Positions 38,102 through 46,857 of a stretch of 64,000 nt of DNA are shown here, in pieces (the first letter of the stretch is position 1; each line of letters starts with the position of its first letter). Source of the stretch: Aggregatilineales bacterium. GTDB taxonomy: Bacteria; Chloroflexota; Anaerolineae; Aggregatilineales; Ch27. The DNA lies in assembly GCA_029976005.1 (NCBI GenBank), contig JARKOQ010000208.1, positions 1 to 64,000 of the forward strand, written 5' to 3'. The notes below the pieces were generated by a model. The model did not search any database, had not been told where the DNA came from, and worked only from the letters and a program-made list of their open reading frames with translations. A program made the position numbers and the translations under genes.

Positions 38102-39289
38102 TTAAGCCTCAACGCTAGGGGCAGCTACTTCGGCCACGGCTTCAGGCTCCCCGTGCTTGGCTTTCCACTCGGCCACTTCGGCCTCGGTAACTTCCTTCAG
38201 GCTCAGGCCCAGGCGCTGGCGGTGGCTCTCGATACTGATCACGCGCATGAGCAGCTTCTGGCCCTCGTGCACGAGCTGGGTCGCATCTTCGGGGGCGGGG
38301 TCGGCCATCTGGCTGGTGTGCAGCAGGGCTTCGATCCCCGGCTCCAGGCTGACGAACGCGCCAAACTGGGTCACGCGGGAGACCTCGCCCTCGACGATCT
38401 GGCCGACATGGTACAACTCGTCGACCAAAGCCCAGGGATTGGGCTGGAGCCGCTTGAGGCTCAGGCCGATGCGCTTGCCGTCCTGATCCAGGCGCAGCAC
38501 GTACACTTCGACCTCGTCGCCGACGTTCAGCAGCTCGCGCGGGTGACGGACACGGTGCCAGGCCAGTTCCGAGATGTGGATCAGACCGTCGGCTCCGCCG
38601 AGATCAACGAACGCGCCAAAATCGCGCAGACCGCTGACCACACCACGACGCACTTCGCCTTCCTTGAGTTCTTCCAGGAGGGCTTCCTTACGCTGGGCGC
38701 GGCGGCCGCTCTGGGCTTCGCGCTGGCTGAGGACGAGGCGGCGGCGCTTGCGGTTGACTTCGATGACCTTGACCGTGATCTTCTTGCCGATCAGGTCGTC
38801 CATGTGAGTCTTGCGCTGGTCTTCGTCCAGGCCACGCGGCAGGTCCATCACGTGGCTGGCGGGCACGAAGCCGCGCAGGTGGCCGAACGGCACGATCAGG
38901 CCGCCGCGATTGGCTTCGGTGATGAAGCCTTCGTAGACGTCACCGCTCTCCATGTAGGCTTCGGCCTTGCTCCAGTCCTTCAACTGGTGGGCCTGGGCGA
39001 CCGAAACGAGCAGATTGCCGTCGGAGTCCTCTGTCCGGATGATCATCACCGGGATTTCGTCGCCGACCTGAACGTCCAGGTCCTCTCCCAACCGCTCCAG
39101 ATCGTTACGCGTGACCACGGCGTCGCGCTTGAGGCCGACGTCAATGATCATGCCCTGGTTGTCGATGGCGAGTACGGTGCCGGTCAGAATATCGCCCCGT
39201 TCGGGCTGCTCCATCTCGAAAGATTCTTCGAGCATGGCCGCGAAGTCGAGGCTCGTGTCCTGGCCGTCCAGCATGGTCACTGTGTTCAT
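38102..39289 (-). CDS. rpsA: S1-domain ribosomal protein (30S S1-like), copy A
   Basis: 395 residues from the ATG at 39289 (GGGGGAC upstream); the frame is open to 39343. Four S1 domains at about 30-100, 115-190, 205-275 and 290-360. The third (GVVSGLRDFGAFVDLGGADGLIHISELAWHRVRHP) and fourth (VSRVTQFGAFVSLEPGIEALLHTSQM) are the best conserved RNA-binding units. An acidic N-terminus (MLEESFEMEQPERGD) resembles that of copy B. Four-domain S1 proteins are typical of many Gram-positives and Chloroflexota; binding to the 30S subunit is inferred. Confidence 0.9.
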   Translation of the reverse strand: MNTVTMLDGQDTSLDFAAMLEESFEMEQPERGDILTGTVLAIDNQGMIIDVGLKRDAVVTRNDLERLGEDLDVQVGDEIPVMIIRTEDSDGNLLVSVAQAHQLKDWSKAEAYMESGDVYEGFITEANRGGLIVPFGHLRGFVPASHVMDLPRGLDEDQRKTHMDDLIGKKITVKVIEVNRKRRRLVLSQREAQSGRRAQRKEALLEELKEGEVRRGVVSGLRDFGAFVDLGGADGLIHISELAWHRVRHPRELLNVGDEVEVYVLRLDQDGKRIGLSLKRLQPNPWALVDELYHVGQIVEGEVSRVTQFGAFVSLEPGIEALLHTSQMADPAPEDATQLVHEGQKLLMRVISIESHRQRLGLSLKEVTEAEVAEWKAKHGEPEAVAEVAAPSVEA

Positions 39290-39492
39290 AGATGTTGTTG
39301 TCCCCCGAGGGTAAGATTTTTGATTCTGGCGCAGGGACGACAAAACACGGCGCGACGGGCAGCTTTGGGAATCAGTGTCGATTGTTGCGGCTAGATTGAC
39401 GTTACGGAACTGCGTGGAGAAATAAGAGCAGTGTAGGCCAACCTGTGCTGCATACTAAGTGCGTTTTGCGCCCATTTGCCAGATCGATGGAG

Positions 39493-39679: not shown

Positions 39680-40885
39680 CTATTCGCCGGCCGGCTCGTC
39701 CGCGCCGGGTTCTTCGGTTGGCTCTGCGGGAACGCCAGCATCCTGGGCGCCGGCCTCCGCGCCTTCGCCTTCCTCGTCACCGAGACCCCAGCGCTGGGTG
39801 AAGCCCACGCGCCGGCGTTCCGGCTCGAGGTGGCTGATGCACAACTGGAGCCGGTCGCCCTTCTTGACGTAGGAGTGCGGCTCCTTGAGGGAGCCATCGC
39901 CCATTTCCGAGAGGTGGAGCAGCCCTTCCAGGCCGTCGTCCAGGGCGATGAACGCGCCGAAGTCGACCACGTTGGTGATGGTGCCTTCCACCTGCTGGCC
40001 TTCATGGTACTTGTCCATGACGGACACCCAGGGGTCGGGCAGCAGACGCTTGCGACTGAGGGCGATCCGGTTGGTATTGCGATCCAGGCTCAGCACATAG
40101 ACGTCGATCTCCTCGCCGATGTTGAGCACGTCGCGGGGGTGATCGACGCGGTGCCAGGCCAGCTCGCTGACGTGGATCAGGCCGTCCGCCCCGCCCAGGT
40201 TGACGAACGCGCCGAAGTCGCGCAGGCCGGTGACGGTCCCGCGAATGATCTGGCCTTCCTTCAGCTCGTCGAGCAGGCGGGCCTTCTGCTGGGCGCGCCA
40301 TTCCTTCTGCGCCTCGCGCTCGGAGAAGATCAGCCGGCGGCGGTTCGGCTCGACCTCGATCACCTTGACGTGCAGGCGGAGGTTGACCAGGTCCTGCATG
40401 GCATCCCGGCGATCGCCGCCCGAAAGGCCGGGGTTGAGAGTCGCCATGTGCGAGGTGGGGATGAAGCCCTCCAGCCGGTGCCAGCGCACCAACACGCCAC
40501 CCCGATTGTGGCCGGTGACCGTGACTTCGACGACATCCTGGGTCTTGAGCAGGTTCAGGGCTTCGTCCCAGTCGTGCTTCTGAAGCCCCATGTTGATCGA
40601 GACCAGAATACCATCGGGATCGGACGGGTTCAGGATGTAGACGGGGACTTCCTGCCCAACGGCCAGTTCGGCCCGGAACTCGCGATCCAACCGCTCGATG
40701 TCTTGAAAGGGGACGATGCCATCCTGTTTGGCGCCTAAATCAACGATGATCTCGTTGGGATTGATTTGTTGGATGATCCCGAGGCGGATTTCGCCGCGTT
40801 CCGGCAGTTCCAGTACGAGCGACTCTTCCAGCATTTTCTCAAAATCGGAGTCCGACTGAGAAGTGTTGCCAACGTGCTTGTCCAT
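39680..40885 (-). CDS. S1-domain ribosomal protein (30S S1-like), copy B
   Basis: 401 residues. Four S1 domains in the same order as copy A, with near-identical cores (VTGLRDFGAFVNLGGADGLIHVSELAWHRVDHP; LDDGLEGLLHLSEMGDGS). The N-terminus starts FEKMLEESLVLELPERGE, the same motif as copy A, so the pair arose by duplication. The C-terminal 35 residues are Glu/Pro/Ala-rich and unlike copy A. It follows the PadR remnant by 32 bases and ends 390 bases before copy A. Confidence 0.9.
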   Translation of the reverse strand: MDKHVGNTSQSDSDFEKMLEESLVLELPERGEIRLGIIQQINPNEIIVDLGAKQDGIVPFQDIERLDREFRAELAVGQEVPVYILNPSDPDGILVSINMGLQKHDWDEALNLLKTQDVVEVTVTGHNRGGVLVRWHRLEGFIPTSHMATLNPGLSGGDRRDAMQDLVNLRLHVKVIEVEPNRRRLIFSEREAQKEWRAQQKARLLDELKEGQIIRGTVTGLRDFGAFVNLGGADGLIHVSELAWHRVDHPRDVLNIGEEIDVYVLSLDRNTNRIALSRKRLLPDPWVSVMDKYHEGQQVEGTITNVVDFGAFIALDDGLEGLLHLSEMGDGSLKEPHSYVKKGDRLQLCISHLEPERRRVGFTQRWGLGDEEGEGAEAGAQDAGVPAEPTEEPGADEPAGE

Positions 40886-41695: not shown

Positions 41696-42220
41696 TCAGT
41701 TTTCCTTGGGGCCGGCTACCCGGATTCCCTGCACGCCGCGATCCAGCTCCCAAGGGTAGACGATGTAGGCGTCGGTCACCGCCCCATAGAAGTCCGGCTC
41801 GGCGCGGGTGAAGAGCGACCGGTAGGGGTTGAAGTGAAAGACACAGGTGGCCGCCAGGCCGCCCGCCGCTTCGACCCGGCCGCGCACGGCCGTGCTCGTC
41901 CGGCCGCTGCCCCACACGTCGTCCACGATCAGGATGCGCCGCTCGGTCAGGAGCGATTCGCTGGGGAACTGGAGGAAATTGGGCATGGCGAGCAGGCGCG
42001 CTTCGTGCGGCTCCTGTTGGAAGTGCACGGCCGCGGTCAGCACGTCGCGGATGTCCAGCGCTTCCGCCAGCAGGCCGCCGGGGATGATCCCGCCGCGCGT
42101 GACCAGGATCATGGCTTCGAACGGGGCAACGCTCTTGATCTGCGGCACGAGGACGTCGACCAATTGATCCACGTCTTGCCAGGTCAGAAGTTCGTGGCGG
42201 ACGGGTCCAGAGCTAGTCAT
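41696..42220 (-). CDS. Phosphoribosyltransferase family protein
   Basis: 174 residues, type I PRTase fold. The PRPP-binding loop is RRILIVDDVWGSGRTSTAV (about residues 90-108), preceded by ILVTRGGIIPGGLLAEALDI, the usual loop that binds pyrophosphate. The hood region is short. It resembles hypoxanthine/xanthine-guanine PRTases of the Gpt type, but the base specificity cannot be read. It starts 39 bases after the twin-NYN gene stop and shares its terminator, so they are one operon. Confidence 0.85.
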   Translation of the reverse strand: MTSSGPVRHELLTWQDVDQLVDVLVPQIKSVAPFEAMILVTRGGIIPGGLLAEALDIRDVLTAAVHFQQEPHEARLLAMPNFLQFPSESLLTERRILIVDDVWGSGRTSTAVRGRVEAAGGLAATCVFHFNPYRSLFTRAEPDFYGAVTDAYIVYPWELDRGVQGIRVAGPKEN

Positions 42221-42259: not shown

Positions 42260-44383
42260 TTACCCGTCCTGCCGGCCCCGGTTGGCGACGGAGGCCACGG
42301 TGTGGTGGGTGCGGAACAGGCTGTACTGCCCGACTCGCCCCGGCACCGGGTTCAGCACGTTTTCGTCGTTCATGATCGACAGCCACAGCTCAAGCTGATC
42401 GGTCTGGAAGCCGGTCTCGCGGCTGACGGTGACGTGCGAGATGGCTTCGTGGCGGTCGTAGAGGCCCAGCAGCGCCAGGACGAAGAAGTCCCGCGTGCGC
42501 AGCACTTCCTGGACATAGGGCGTGTCGAGGATCAGGGAGATGCCCTTGGTGCGGAATTCGCTCTGAGGGTTCTCGTATTCCTCGACGCGGACGGCTTGCA
42601 GTTCCAGCAGCCCTTCGATGGCCTGCTGGAAGACCATGCCCGGATCGTGGGCGCGCAGGCGGCGGTGCAGGCTGCCCAGCGGGCACCACAGGAATCCCCG
42701 GAAGCTCGTGAACTGTTCCACGCTGACCACGATCCGGCGCTGCATGGCGTCGAGCAGATCGGGATCGACCCGGCTGTACAGGAAGCCCGGCCCCTGGTCG
42801 CCGACTTCCTCGACTTCTTCCAGGCGTTGGATGGTGTTATCCGAGAGTTTGATCACGGGGACGAGGTCGTCCGGATTGTGGCGGTGGGGGACCAGCTCGC
42901 GGTGGAGGATGCCTTCGCGCACCAGACAGTCGACCCATTCCGAGCGCCATTGGTCGCTGGAATTCAGGCCGGGCCGATCCAGGTCGCGGTCCATGGCGAT
43001 GCCTTTGAGCAGGAAGCCGTAGTTGACGTACTCCCAGCCGCGCACGTCCAGGGTATTGGCGACGCGGGCGACGATCCGGTCCCGAACCAGGCGGGTCTGT
43101 TCCACCAGCGGGTGGGCGAGGTTGACGCTCAGAATCTCGCCGTCCTCCGTGTGGAACAGGTCCATCGCCATGGCCTGGGTGACCAGGTTGGCGGCCCGGT
43201 CGTCGGAGACCACGGCGTTCACGGCCAGAAGCTGGCGCTCCAGCGCGGACCGGGTGACGATGTAGTTGCCGGCGGCCAGATTGTCGTACTGGAGGATGGC
43301 GCTGACCCACTGCGAGGGCCGGACGTCGATTGGAGGCGTCGCGTGCGCCTGCGGGGTCGGGGCGGTCGCGCCGTACAGGCGGCCGAGCGCCTCGTGCGGC
43401 TGCATGCTGGTGAAGTCTTCGATGTACTCCACGATGACGGCGGGGTTTGTTTCCACCTGGCGGCTGATGCTGCCGCGCACGCCCCACACGATCACTTGCT
43501 TGTTGTGCGAACGCAGGGTGTTGATGACCTCGTTGAAGTCGCGGTCCCCGCTGGCAAGGATGAAGACATCCGGGCTTTCGGGGCGCATCAGGTCGGCCAT
43601 CAGGTCGCGGGCGATGCGCATGTCGGCGCTGTTCTTGCCGGGCAGGTTGAAGACCGGATCGATGTTGCTCATCGCCAGGCGGCTGGGGGCGTCGTCCGTG
43701 ATTTCCCGGCCGACATTGTCCACCAGCGGGGGCAGGCTGCCGCGCTGGCCCCAGGGGGCATAGGCGGCCATGTGGGTGATCTGGCCGTGAGCGCGGGCCT
43801 GGGCCACGAAGCGCGCGATCAGGTGCTCCAGATTGACCGTGTAGCCCTGCTTGTCCAGGCTGATGGCGATATTCTCGAAGTCGATGTAGAGCGCGACCAG
43901 CGCACCATGAATGCCGAGCGTGGTTTCCAAGGGCTGGACGATCACGCCGGGAAGGTGTAGCCCGGCCGGATCGGCCTCGCCCCACACCCGAATTCGCCCA
44001 CCGGGAGCGAGACGAACCCGGGCCAGCATGGGCAGGATCGCGGTGTCGTTGGTAGCCAGGATCAGCTCGTTGACGGCCGGGTCATGTTGAAGATAGTCGC
44101 GCCAGAGGATGCTCTCCAGCGTATGCCGGTCCGCGACCGAGCACAAGGCGAAGCCGCTGGCGGAGAAGGCGCGCTGCGGGCTGACCGCGCCGCTGTACAG
44201 CGCGTCCTGCATCTCCCAGTTGGCGATGGCCACGGCGACCAGATCGTTGAAGCTGGTCAGACCGGCCGCCAACGCCGCGCCGCCGCGCAGTTTGTTCGCC
44301 AGTTCGAAGAGGTCGATGGAGATACCACGTTGACGTAATTTGGACAGGAGGGTGTCTACGTCAACAAATAAGTAAGAGGCCAT
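42260..44383 (-). CDS. Twin NYN/PIN-like domain protein with C-terminal helical domains
   Basis: 707 residues. A classical NYN (LabA-type PIN) ribonuclease domain lies at about 160-325, with YIDFEN (Asp168), NSADMRIARD (Asp254) and ASGDRDF (Asp280, Asp282), ending VIVWG. Residues 1-136 repeat that pattern in weaker form: LFVDVD (Asp8), SVADRHTLES (Asp85), ATNDTAI (Asp113), ending IRVWG. So the protein seems to carry two NYN domains in tandem. The C-terminal half (340-707) is likely winged-helix (QWVSAILQYDNLAAGNYIV) and other helical domains, possibly RNA-binding. Target RNA unknown. Upstream of a PRTase in one operon. Confidence 0.78.
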   Translation of the reverse strand: MASYLFVDVDTLLSKLRQRGISIDLFELANKLRGGAALAAGLTSFNDLVAVAIANWEMQDALYSGAVSPQRAFSASGFALCSVADRHTLESILWRDYLQHDPAVNELILATNDTAILPMLARVRLAPGGRIRVWGEADPAGLHLPGVIVQPLETTLGIHGALVALYIDFENIAISLDKQGYTVNLEHLIARFVAQARAHGQITHMAAYAPWGQRGSLPPLVDNVGREITDDAPSRLAMSNIDPVFNLPGKNSADMRIARDLMADLMRPESPDVFILASGDRDFNEVINTLRSHNKQVIVWGVRGSISRQVETNPAVIVEYIEDFTSMQPHEALGRLYGATAPTPQAHATPPIDVRPSQWVSAILQYDNLAAGNYIVTRSALERQLLAVNAVVSDDRAANLVTQAMAMDLFHTEDGEILSVNLAHPLVEQTRLVRDRIVARVANTLDVRGWEYVNYGFLLKGIAMDRDLDRPGLNSSDQWRSEWVDCLVREGILHRELVPHRHNPDDLVPVIKLSDNTIQRLEEVEEVGDQGPGFLYSRVDPDLLDAMQRRIVVSVEQFTSFRGFLWCPLGSLHRRLRAHDPGMVFQQAIEGLLELQAVRVEEYENPQSEFRTKGISLILDTPYVQEVLRTRDFFVLALLGLYDRHEAISHVTVSRETGFQTDQLELWLSIMNDENVLNPVPGRVGQYSLFRTHHTVASVANRGRQDG

Positions 44384-44651
44384 TTCGATACCTTAATCGA
44401 AAAATAAAACCACACGTTGCTGGATGGGGAGGGCAGGGCCGGCGCTGAAGGTTTTTTCCACTGCGATCGGAGCCAGGCGGAACACCCTCCGGCTCTCTGT
44501 TCTCTGTGCGAAACCCCTACCGACCTCGACACAACAGAGCAATAATTTGTTGAACGGACAGACAATCACTATCTAAATTTTAACAGGCGTGCGGCCTCTC
44601 AGCAAGAGTGGCGGCGGACGCAGATCGGCTTTGGCCCCCGGACGGGGCAAA
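44384..44651. other. AT-rich spacer between proS and the twin-NYN gene
   Basis: No credible gene. The part next to the NYN start (44384-44420) and 44530-44585 are AT-rich and could hold its promoter, but I see no pair of boxes at correct spacing. The only definite element in the 308-base gap is the proS terminator at its right end. Confidence 0.5.
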
Positions 44652-44684
44652 GGAGCGCCCGGACCAACAAGGGCCGGGCGCTCC
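44652..44684 (-). terminator. Terminator after proS
   Basis: Eleven-pair perfect stem GGAGCGCCCGG / CCGGGCGCTCC with an 11-base loop; minus-strand tail TTTGCCC. It is 8 bases beyond the proS stop. Confidence 0.78.
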
Positions 44685-44691
44685 TCGGTGC

Positions 44692-46146
44692 TCAATACGA
44701 ACGGGCGAAGAAGGCCATCTTCTGGGCGGTCTTGCCGCTGACGATGCTTGGCCCGGTCTGGTTGGGATAGGGCTGTTCCAGGGGGAAGCAGCGCGAGACG
44801 CACTGGAAGTCTTCCTTGATTTTCTGCTCTTCCTCGCGGTCGCCGCTGAACCAGGTCAGCGCCCAGCCGCCGCTTTCGATGATCTCGCCGAAGCGCTGGT
44901 AATCGCCGACGACTTCGGTCAGGTTGCTGTCGCGGAATTCCGTCGCCTGTTTGAGCATGTTGGCCTGGATGTCGTCCAACAGGTTGCGCACCGCCGTGAC
45001 GATGCCTTCCTGGGGCACGAACTGCTTGCCTTCGCGGCCGGGGATATCGCGCCGGGCCAGGGCGACCGAGTTCTTCTGAACGTCCTTGGGGCCGATCTCC
45101 ATCCGCAGCGGGACGCCGCGCATTTCCCAGTCGTTGTACTTGAAGCCGGGTGTCTGGCCTTCGCGGTCGTCCACGTGGACACGGATGTCCGCGTCGCGCA
45201 GGGTGGCCTTCATGCGCCACACGGTGTCCATCACGGCGGTCTTTTCGGCCTCGTCCTTGTAGATGGGCACGATCACGACCTGGATGGGGGCCATGCGCGG
45301 CGGCAGGCGCAGGCCCTTGTCGTCGCCGTGGGCCATGATCATCGCGCCGATGAAGCGGGTGCTGAGGCCCCAACTCGTCGTCCAGCAGTACTGAAGCTCG
45401 TTGTTGAGGTCGAGGTACTTGATGTCGAAGGCCTTGGCGAAATTCTGGCCGAGGTTATGGCTGGTGCCGGATTGCAGGGCGCGCCGGTCGCCCATCATGG
45501 CTTCGATGGTGTAGCTGTGCAGCGCCCCAGCGAACTTCTCGCTGTCGCTCTTGCGGCCGGGAATGACCGGGATGGCGGCATCGGTCACGGCGAAATCGCG
45601 GTAGATATCCAGCATGCGGCGGGTTTCTTCTTCCGCCTCGTCGTAGGTCGCGTGGGCGGTATGGCCTTCCTGCCACAGGAATTCCATCGTGCGCAGGAAG
45701 AGCCGGGTGCGCATCTCCCAGCGAACGACGTTGGCCCACTGGTTGATCAGCACGGGCAGGTCGCGGTAAGACTGAATCCACTTGGCATAGGCCCAGCCGA
45801 TGATGGTTTCCGAGGTCGGGCGCACCACCAGCGGCTCTTCCAGCTCCTTGCCGCCGCCGATGGTCACGACGGCAAGCTCCGGCGAGAACCCCTCGACGTG
45901 CTCGGCTTCCTTCTTCAGGAAGCTCTCCGGGATGAACAGCGGGAAGTAGGCATTGCGGTGCCCGGTTTCCTTGAAGCGCCGGTCGAGTCCGGCGCGGACT
46001 GCTTCCCAAAGCTCGTAGCCATAGGGGAGGATGATCATGCAGCCGCGAACGGGCGCGTAATCAGCCAGCTCGGCCATCTGCACTACATCCGTATACCAGC
46101 GGCTGTAATCTTCGTTGCGGGGGGTGACGCCCTGTTTCTCCGACAT
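44692..46146 (-). CDS. proS: Prolyl-tRNA synthetase, archaeal/eukaryotic type
   Basis: 484 residues of class II aaRS. Motif 2 and the active site are clear (LVVRPTSETIIGWAYAKWIQSYRDLPVLINQWANVVRWEMRTRLFLRTMEFLWQEGHTAH) and the anticodon-binding domain follows from about 290. It lacks the about 180-residue INS editing domain of E. coli-type ProRS between motifs 2 and 3, and ends in an aromatic Tyr, both marks of the archaeal-type (ProS type 3) enzyme also found in some bacteria. It may therefore need a separate trans-editing protein. ATG at 46146. Confidence 0.94.
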   Translation of the reverse strand: MSEKQGVTPRNEDYSRWYTDVVQMAELADYAPVRGCMIILPYGYELWEAVRAGLDRRFKETGHRNAYFPLFIPESFLKKEAEHVEGFSPELAVVTIGGGKELEEPLVVRPTSETIIGWAYAKWIQSYRDLPVLINQWANVVRWEMRTRLFLRTMEFLWQEGHTAHATYDEAEEETRRMLDIYRDFAVTDAAIPVIPGRKSDSEKFAGALHSYTIEAMMGDRRALQSGTSHNLGQNFAKAFDIKYLDLNNELQYCWTTSWGLSTRFIGAMIMAHGDDKGLRLPPRMAPIQVVIVPIYKDEAEKTAVMDTVWRMKATLRDADIRVHVDDREGQTPGFKYNDWEMRGVPLRMEIGPKDVQKNSVALARRDIPGREGKQFVPQEGIVTAVRNLLDDIQANMLKQATEFRDSNLTEVVGDYQRFGEIIESGGWALTWFSGDREEEQKIKEDFQCVSRCFPLEQPYPNQTGPSIVSGKTAQKMAFFARSY

Positions 46147-46249: not shown

Positions 46250-46663
46250 TCACTTCTTATGGCGGGTTTCCTGCTGGGCCAGGTAGCTGGCATAGGCGGC
46301 GCGGTAGGCCGCGTCAAGCTGGCGATCGTAAACCTGGATCAGCAATTTTGCCAGTTGGAGTTCCGACTGCTCGTCGATGAAATCCTGGCGGGTCTGGCTG
46401 TCCCACTGCTCCCACATCTCGCGGAAGCCTGGCCGCCGGTAGAGGGGGGTGAGCAGATCGGTTGTAACCTGCGCTTCCAGCATTTGCAGGGCGGTGTCAT
46501 CCAGACCTGCCTTGAGTGCGAGGTAGGCCGGCTCGAACACGATCTGGGTCAGCGGGCCGAGGTCGGCCAGCTCGGCATCCAGGTTGTAAAAATAGTCCCG
46601 GAAATCGTCATCTTCCCAGAGGGTATCCAGAACAAAACTGGCGGCTTTGGTGTAAGTACTCAT
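46250..46663 (-). CDS. Unknown helical protein (137 aa)
   Basis: Start taken at the ATG 46663; the GTG at 46675 is four codons upstream. Rich in Asp, Glu, Gln and Leu, with predicted helices throughout (FVLDTLWEDDDFRDYFYNLDAELADLG; SELQLAKLLIQVYDRQLDAAYRAAYASYL). No Cys pairs, signal peptide or membrane segment. It is upstream of proS on the same strand, 103 bases away, and divergent from the FtsZ-like gene. No family recognised. Confidence 0.65.
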   Translation of the reverse strand: MSTYTKAASFVLDTLWEDDDFRDYFYNLDAELADLGPLTQIVFEPAYLALKAGLDDTALQMLEAQVTTDLLTPLYRRPGFREMWEQWDSQTRQDFIDEQSELQLAKLLIQVYDRQLDAAYRAAYASYLAQQETRHKK

Positions 46664-46857
46664 TTTATCGTTCACCTGTCAGCGTTTGCCTGGCACCACC
46701 AGGCCGGGGGAACCACGATTCAGGCGAGCCGGATGGCCCCCCTCTCTATTGTGCCACAGAACGGCCGCCCTTGCCGTGCGTTCGCGCGGCGGCGCTCATC
46801 CTTAGCTTACCCGAAAACACCGGTGGGGAGAAGCGGCCTCGCGGCGGCGGGAGGTGA

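Follow-up and report, generated by a model that had tools for sequence, protein, structure and literature searches.

A conserved protein with two tandem NYN domains and four predicted winged helices, encoded beside proS in an order of Anaerolineae (Chloroflexota)

The window analysed here is a stretch of 64,000 nucleotides from a contig of an Aggregatilineales bacterium. The gene of interest encodes a 707-residue protein with two NYN domains (D1 and D2) followed by four predicted winged helices, and lies between proS and a phosphoribosyltransferase-like gene. The features of the locus, in order of transcription and with window coordinates, are:

44692..46146, minus strand: proS, the prolyl-tRNA synthetase gene, upstream (Pfam)
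44384..44691, minus strand: leader, the 308-nt intergenic region from proS to the twin-NYN gene
42260..44383, minus strand: gene for the twin-NYN, four-winged-helix protein, 707 aa (open reading frame; 78 full-length, stop-free homologues at 80 kept loci; dN/dS)
43916..44383, minus strand: D1, residues 1–156, diverged NYN domain (hhalign, Pfam in homologues, fold)
43403..43906, minus strand: D2, residues 160–327, canonical NYN nuclease domain (Pfam, residue counts, fold)
43124..43312, minus strand: predicted winged helix 1, residues 358–420 (AlphaFold2 secondary structure HHH-EE; mean pLDDT of the whole model 88)
42845..43111, minus strand: predicted winged helix 2, residues 425–513 (AlphaFold2; VIA-align to winged-helix proteins, Z up to about 10)
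42533..42763, minus strand: predicted winged helix 3, residues 541–617 (AlphaFold2; ESCRT-II winged helix 1u5t, Z 9.4)
42317..42520, minus strand: predicted winged helix 4, residues 622–689 (AlphaFold2 secondary structure)
41696..42220, minus strand: phosphoribosyltransferase-like gene, directly downstream (Pfam E 1.9e-5, just under the curated cut-off)

Two further genes on the same strand, at 38102..39343 and 39680..40885, adjoin each other and encode S1-domain proteins resembling ribosomal protein S1; the first has four S1 stretches by Pfam and the second was compared by eye. Upstream of proS, at 46250..46675 (minus strand), is a gene for a protein of just 141 aa, for which Pfam gives no convincing match, and its open reading frame family is present at seven loci, always upstream and on the same strand.

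A scan of 84,980 species genomes gave 113 stretches encoding relatives, 80 of which were kept. The homologue is full-length and free of stops at 78 of these 80 loci, and the truncated matches at the other two (L044 and L060) were dropped, leaving a 79-row alignment of the window protein and 78 homologues. The closest relatives are encoded on MAG contigs titled Anaerolineae, Aggregatilineales, Ardenticatenia and other Chloroflexi; the same Chloroflexota gene is present on contigs titled Bacteroidetes (L017) and cyanobacterium (L059), and these phylum titles are probably binning errors. The whole gene is under purifying selection, D2 most strongly and D1 too: in the 14 closest pairs, with values that saturated synonymous sites made uncomputable left out, dN/dS is at most 0.20 for D1, 0.024 for D2 and 0.13 for the C-terminus. 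The window protein has no match in NCBIfam, nor in a sequence search of the PDB. The architecture is new, although its parts are known, and it is real and well conserved; the first-pass annotation knew of no described protein of this layout, and a literature search, largely confined to titles and the openings of abstracts and with most subscription journals and preprints outside its reach, likewise found no two-NYN, tandem-NYN or degenerate-NYN protein so arranged.

D2 is a canonical member of the family. Residues 163–308 match Pfam NYN (PF01936) with an E-value of 2.3e-19 and 70.8 bits against a gathering cut-off of 24.2, and D168, E170, N171, D254, D280 and D282 are invariant in all 79 rows, D168 and D280 being the two that the first-pass annotation had named in this domain. 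The nearest solved folds are VPA0982 (2qip; Z 18.6, rmsd 2.4 over 154 residues) and the MARF1 NYN domain (5yaa; Z 17.9, rmsd 2.4 over 147 residues). The latter is described, in PMC6294520, as a demonstrated endoribonuclease stimulated by Mn or Mg, with an acidic patch of Asp358, Asp426, Asp427 and Asp452, and the invariance of D168, D254, D280 and D282 fits the pattern expected from that patch. From the conserved acids, the fold and the activity of MARF1, we infer that D2 would be an active RNase.

D1 has diverged further. Residues 1–156 of the window protein match no Pfam family themselves, and PF01936 matches 34 of 63 homologous D1 domains, with a best E-value of 4.9e-5. Compared by hhalign with the NYN domains of 15 proteins from other Chloroflexota that have a single such domain, the D1 profile scores 48.0 (probability 93.3, E 2.8e-7), and 60 column shuffles reach at most 20.2. 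Structure prediction, which the first-pass annotation had recommended, gives a D1 model with a pLDDT of 88.3 and a pTM of 0.87 when the domain is modelled alone, and its three best structural matches are all NYN domains: 5yaa (Z 12.2), 6fdl (11.7) and 2qip (11.0), with rmsd values of 3.1–3.6 over 138–142 residues. The match to MARF1 (5yaa) aligns 140 residues of a 149-residue chain at an rmsd of 3.1; the next structures are 3wrv (Z 8.8) and ExoIX (8.4), and Foldseek with the D1 model returned nothing at an E-value of 0.001 or better. Because the profile comparison, Pfam in the homologues and the modelled fold all place it there, D1 is assigned to the NYN family, and the outcome that would have counted against a first NYN domain, namely no similarity to the family, is contradicted by the hhalign E-value, the Pfam matches and the MARF1 Z-score.

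The catalytic acids of D1 are incomplete in a particular way. D8, D24, W56, E106, R130, R132 and W134 are kept in all 79 rows and R86 in 78, and position 10 holds Asp in 74 rows and Glu in the remaining five. The first-pass annotation had read the same series of acids in this domain as in the second, and only part of that reading stands: Asp8 is invariant, whereas the middle Asp has no clear counterpart in the window protein, which has Ser91 at a position that is Asp or Glu in 68 of the 79 rows, and the late Asp113, proposed there as catalytic, is present in only seven rows (the window, L002, L003, L036 and L029–L031). This last is the first Asp of the G-D-x-D-F motif, missing in the other 72. 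Position 115 is Asp or Glu in 70 rows, Asp never occurs at both 113 and 115, and an acid is found at one or other of them in 77, so that, as read from the alignment, the canonical set is altered and shifted and not erased. D1 is nevertheless constrained despite losing the late Asp in 72 of 79 rows, as its dN/dS of at most 0.2 and its invariant residues show; it is probably not a full nuclease itself. Both domains have the [IV]-x-V-W-G ends noted earlier, and W134 and W300 are also invariant among the 65 rows compared. The earlier description of two NYN domains in tandem, the first half-conserved, thus holds, with D1 an NYN domain with altered acids and D2 complete.

Compared directly, the D1 and D2 profiles give a score of 26.4 and a probability of 15, with 60 shuffles reaching at most 22.5. 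Since this match is weak, D1 is not necessarily a copy of D2 as it stands today. An origin of D1 as a recent copy of D2 was considered and is not supported, D1 scoring 48.0 against single-NYN proteins and 26.4 against D2 in alignments that differ in depth and diversity. The full-length AlphaFold2 model, built with 65 sequences, has a mean pLDDT of 88.0 and a pTM of 0.60, a value at which the positions of D1, D2 and the winged helices with respect to one another are not reliable and a contact between D1 and D2 is not readable from the model.

The C-terminus had been described simply as helical; helices are indeed present, but AlphaFold2 arranges the region as four predicted winged helices. The second and third resemble winged helices of MukF, Nse1-Nse3-Nse4, MarR, Orc, YceH and ESCRT-II (Z about 8–10). 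The four-winged-helix fragment of SelB (1lva) is in both structure match lists, from Foldseek with the full model and from structural alignment, with a high rmsd (14.8 in the structural alignment); the full-model Foldseek list holds NYN and winged-helix proteins amid many unrelated large proteins. The tandem winged helices of SelB bind an RNA hairpin, and winged helices can bind DNA or proteins as well. The OST-HTH/LOTUS family (PF12872) has no Pfam match in the window protein up to an E-value of 10, and in hhalign comparisons with a set of five LOTUS sequences winged helices 2–4 score at the level of shuffles, while the first reaches 18.1, where the best of 40 shuffles has 16.8, in an alignment of 22 columns. 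Pairwise hhalign comparison of the four winged helices for internal repeats gave nothing convincing (best score 17.1).

The protein is matched, in full or in part, in 47 of 61 genomes (its own and 60 relatives from one order of Anaerolineae), and in 34 of the 38 with a completeness of 90% or more and a contamination of 5% or less. It was not found in the other 14, among them all nine genomes of one family (f3), a point against the preferred reading given below. Most genomes have one full-length copy; what departs from this are fragmentary or split matches and, in two genomes, one more match confined to the NYN domain. Of 298 genomes drawn from across the class, 136 have a match to the whole protein and 19 to the D1 profile, every one of the 19 belonging to the same family or order as the window; the matches listed outside the order cover the NYN part, and at 18 loci of such proteins that were read the NYN domain starts within the first 90 residues of the open reading frame. 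A sister family from other Chloroflexota (L084/L109 and L110–L113) combines the NYN domain with winged helices homologous to those of the twin-NYN protein (C-terminal region: hhalign probability 98.1, E 8.6e-14) and has no D1, and its N-termini differ, with an Xre-type HTH before the NYN domain in L110 and nothing comparable in L109. Its members have GDGGY where the twin-NYN family has GDRDF, and going by this motif their active site is possibly altered. Because relatives elsewhere in the Chloroflexota have one NYN domain and no D1, D1 would most simply have been added, in this lineage, to the N-terminus of an older protein made of NYN and winged helices.

A gene-neighbour search, also suggested in the first-pass annotation, finds a recurrent gene order. 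Within 1.5 kb and on the same strand, proS is upstream at 44 of 81 loci (40 of 68 where the upstream sequence reaches 2 kb or more) and pnp, coding for PNPase, is downstream at 39 of 81 (and 38 of 70), counts in which many loci are close kin and not independent. The gene between the twin-NYN gene and pnp, read in L007, L055 and L064, is rpsO, as Pfam confirms in the latter two. In the window pnp does not follow, and the phosphoribosyltransferase-like gene sits where many relatives have rpsO-pnp; it is also found within 150 bases downstream in L002, L003 and L036. A possible GGTGGC hairpin lies right before rpsO in L067, L068 and L078 (8211..8256) and also in L064 and L073, and is perhaps an S15 autoregulatory site.

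The RNase complement was compared in 31 genomes. RNase Y is matched in all 31 (29 over the cut-off) and a J-type RNase in 30 (28 over the cut-off), and RNase E/G in none of the 31. A role for the twin-NYN protein as replacement for a missing RNase Y is thereby rejected, and with RNase Y and RNase J-type enzymes present it would be an additional enzyme.

Where proS is the upstream neighbour, about 300–650 nt separate it from the start codon, and in many relatives this leader carries a hairpin, often ACCACC...GGTGGT, followed after a few bases by a U-run leading into the AGG of the likely ribosome-binding site; examples with hairpin, U-run and ribosome-binding site in the last ~50 nt before the start include L005, L010, L018, L022 and L055. 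Among 77 leaders (the window and 76 loci with enough sequence), a 44-nt segment from -52 to -8 folds with z < -2 in 29, whereas three control windows placed further upstream give 10, 3 and 5 such leaders, and a strict pattern of hairpin, T-run and GG occurs in 23 of 77 (loci only), with 0.0011 expected per 30-nt window from 69 other sites. In 43 leaders picked by eye covariation is positive, pair counts exceeding all 500 shuffles on four of five measures, and RNAalifold predicts no pair in the same 43. Covariation in 24 leaders chosen by eye is at shuffle level, 188 of 500 shuffles reaching the score. A model (R1) built from these 24 matched six of 61 genomes at an E-value of 0.1 or better, in seven places, two of which (G028 and G060) precede the twin-NYN gene and five lie elsewhere; it also weakly matches the site before rpsO in L067, L068 and L078 (E 0.2–0.57).

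The window's own leader lacks the hairpin and folds worse than its shuffles (z +1.54), and at 44384..44691 it contains no promoter- or terminator-like consensus site. R1 found nothing in the window's genome or in the others of its family, five genomes in all, nor in the window, L002, L003 and L036. Known RNA families gave one match around the gene, to a nematode snoRNA family below its gathering score (E 0.26), which was taken as chance. Enriched by folding and by the strict pattern, the hairpin looks like a lineage-restricted regulatory element. As a guess by analogy, the protein may regulate its own gene through this hairpin in those relatives; the mRNAs of RNase E and PNPase are subject to analogous autoregulation.

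The two NYN domains with their acids, the prediction of four winged helices, the conservation of the gene and its neighbours are observed; four properties are what we infer: nuclease activity, pairing of D1 with D2, RNA as the ligand, and cooperation with PNPase. Our preferred reading, to which we assign a probability of about 45%, is a housekeeping endoribonuclease of one Anaerolineae order in which the diverged D1 helps the catalytic D2. Substrate choice would fall to the four winged helices, which would bind the RNA or a ribonucleoprotein, and D2 (160–327) would act as the metal-dependent NYN catalyst that cuts the RNA. D1 (1–156) would pack against D2 and either position the RNA or complete or bias the active site, D8 and R130/R132 being its obvious candidate residues; D1-D2 would thus form a covalent, single-chain counterpart of composite PIN pairs, and the RNA fragments may pass to PNPase, whose gene often adjoins. 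A bolder form of this reading, quite unlikely as a whole, has a bacterial NYN endoribonuclease of composite type, a covalent equivalent of SMG5-SMG6 in one chain, that feeds PNPase and in many relatives regulates itself through the leader hairpin, bound by its four winged helices.

The main rival, which we consider rather unlikely, is that D1 is a degenerate NYN domain serving solely as a docking or regulatory module (for example for ribosomes, PNPase or another protein), outside the D2 active site. N-terminal modules do vary among relatives, from an Xre-type HTH in L110 and nothing comparable in L109 to D1 here, and the invariant E106, R130 and R132 face, on our reading of the alignment, uncharged counterparts in D2; yet D8 and the Asp or Glu at position 10, which correspond to D168 and E170 of the active domain, are present in every one of the 79 rows and would be needless for pure docking. 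It is distinctly improbable that both domains cut RNA, in two coupled cuts, with D1 using shifted acids (D8, D/E91, and D113 or D/E115). D1 might keep activity because position 91 is acidic in 68 of 79 rows and 113 or 115 in 77, never with Asp at both, but the first Asp of G-D-x-D-F is gone in 72, the window has Ser91, and in the predicted models residue 91 sits further along its helix than D254 along the one it belongs to.

An action on DNA or a role in transcription, with winged helices that bind DNA, would agree with their resemblance to MukF, MarR, Orc and YceH and with the Xre-type HTH in the sister family. We regard it as very unlikely: tandem winged helices bind RNA too, as in SelB; the gene order with rpsO-pnp indicates RNA; and the nearest structures to D2 are VPA0982 and the NYN domain of MARF1, the latter an RNase according to PMC6294520. 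In favour of a defence or toxin nuclease is a weak partial match of the protein to a PADLOC NYN profile (E 0.0043, residues 254–311), but we regard this reading as extremely unlikely, since the gene is conserved, mostly single-copy and set in a core gene neighbourhood, with no phage match and four plasmid matches that cover the NYN part only (21–24% of the query).

What makes the gene interesting is that one chain unites a normal NYN domain with an altered one, and its link to rpsO-pnp. Composite PIN/NYN nucleases, in which an altered domain completes an active one, are known as separate chains, from mRNA decay in eukaryotes; were the preferred reading true, the composite-nuclease idea could be tested in one small, purifiable bacterial protein, and bacteria with RNase Y and RNase J and no detected RNase E/G would gain an additional RNA-decay enzyme, often encoded beside PNPase.

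Among known systems, the closest in layout are the LK-nuclease (DUF88/NYN, PF01936) proteins with OST-HTH/LOTUS domains, bacterial and Limkain b1/MARF1, in which NYN is likewise followed by winged helices. The twin-NYN protein differs in having two NYN domains and not one, in winged helices that are not detectably LOTUS, and in a gene often linked to rpsO-pnp, whereas the bacterial NYN-LOTUS proteins were described in 2010, in PMC2848206, as having no conserved neighbourhood with known RNA-processing systems. The single-NYN sister family shares the NYN domain and homologous winged helices but lacks D1 and has GDGGY in place of GDRDF.

The proposal that one chain may form its own nuclease pair is plausible by analogy with SMG5-SMG6 and Regnase-1. 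According to PMC12923823, the inactive PIN domain of SMG5 gives an Asp to the SMG6 active site, and the likeness is that one active and one altered PIN-like domain would cooperate, with the acids of D2 complete and those of D1 shifted instead of absent. SMG5 and SMG6 are, however, two separate eukaryotic proteins, and their pairing is supported by models, mutants and assays (PMC12923823), whereas that of D1 and D2 is a proposal. In Regnase-1, as PMC4772114 describes, the primary PIN domain receives basic residues from a secondary one in a head-to-tail dimer, so that a second PIN-like domain again aids the active one, but Regnase-1 is a homodimer with a zinc finger and without winged helices.
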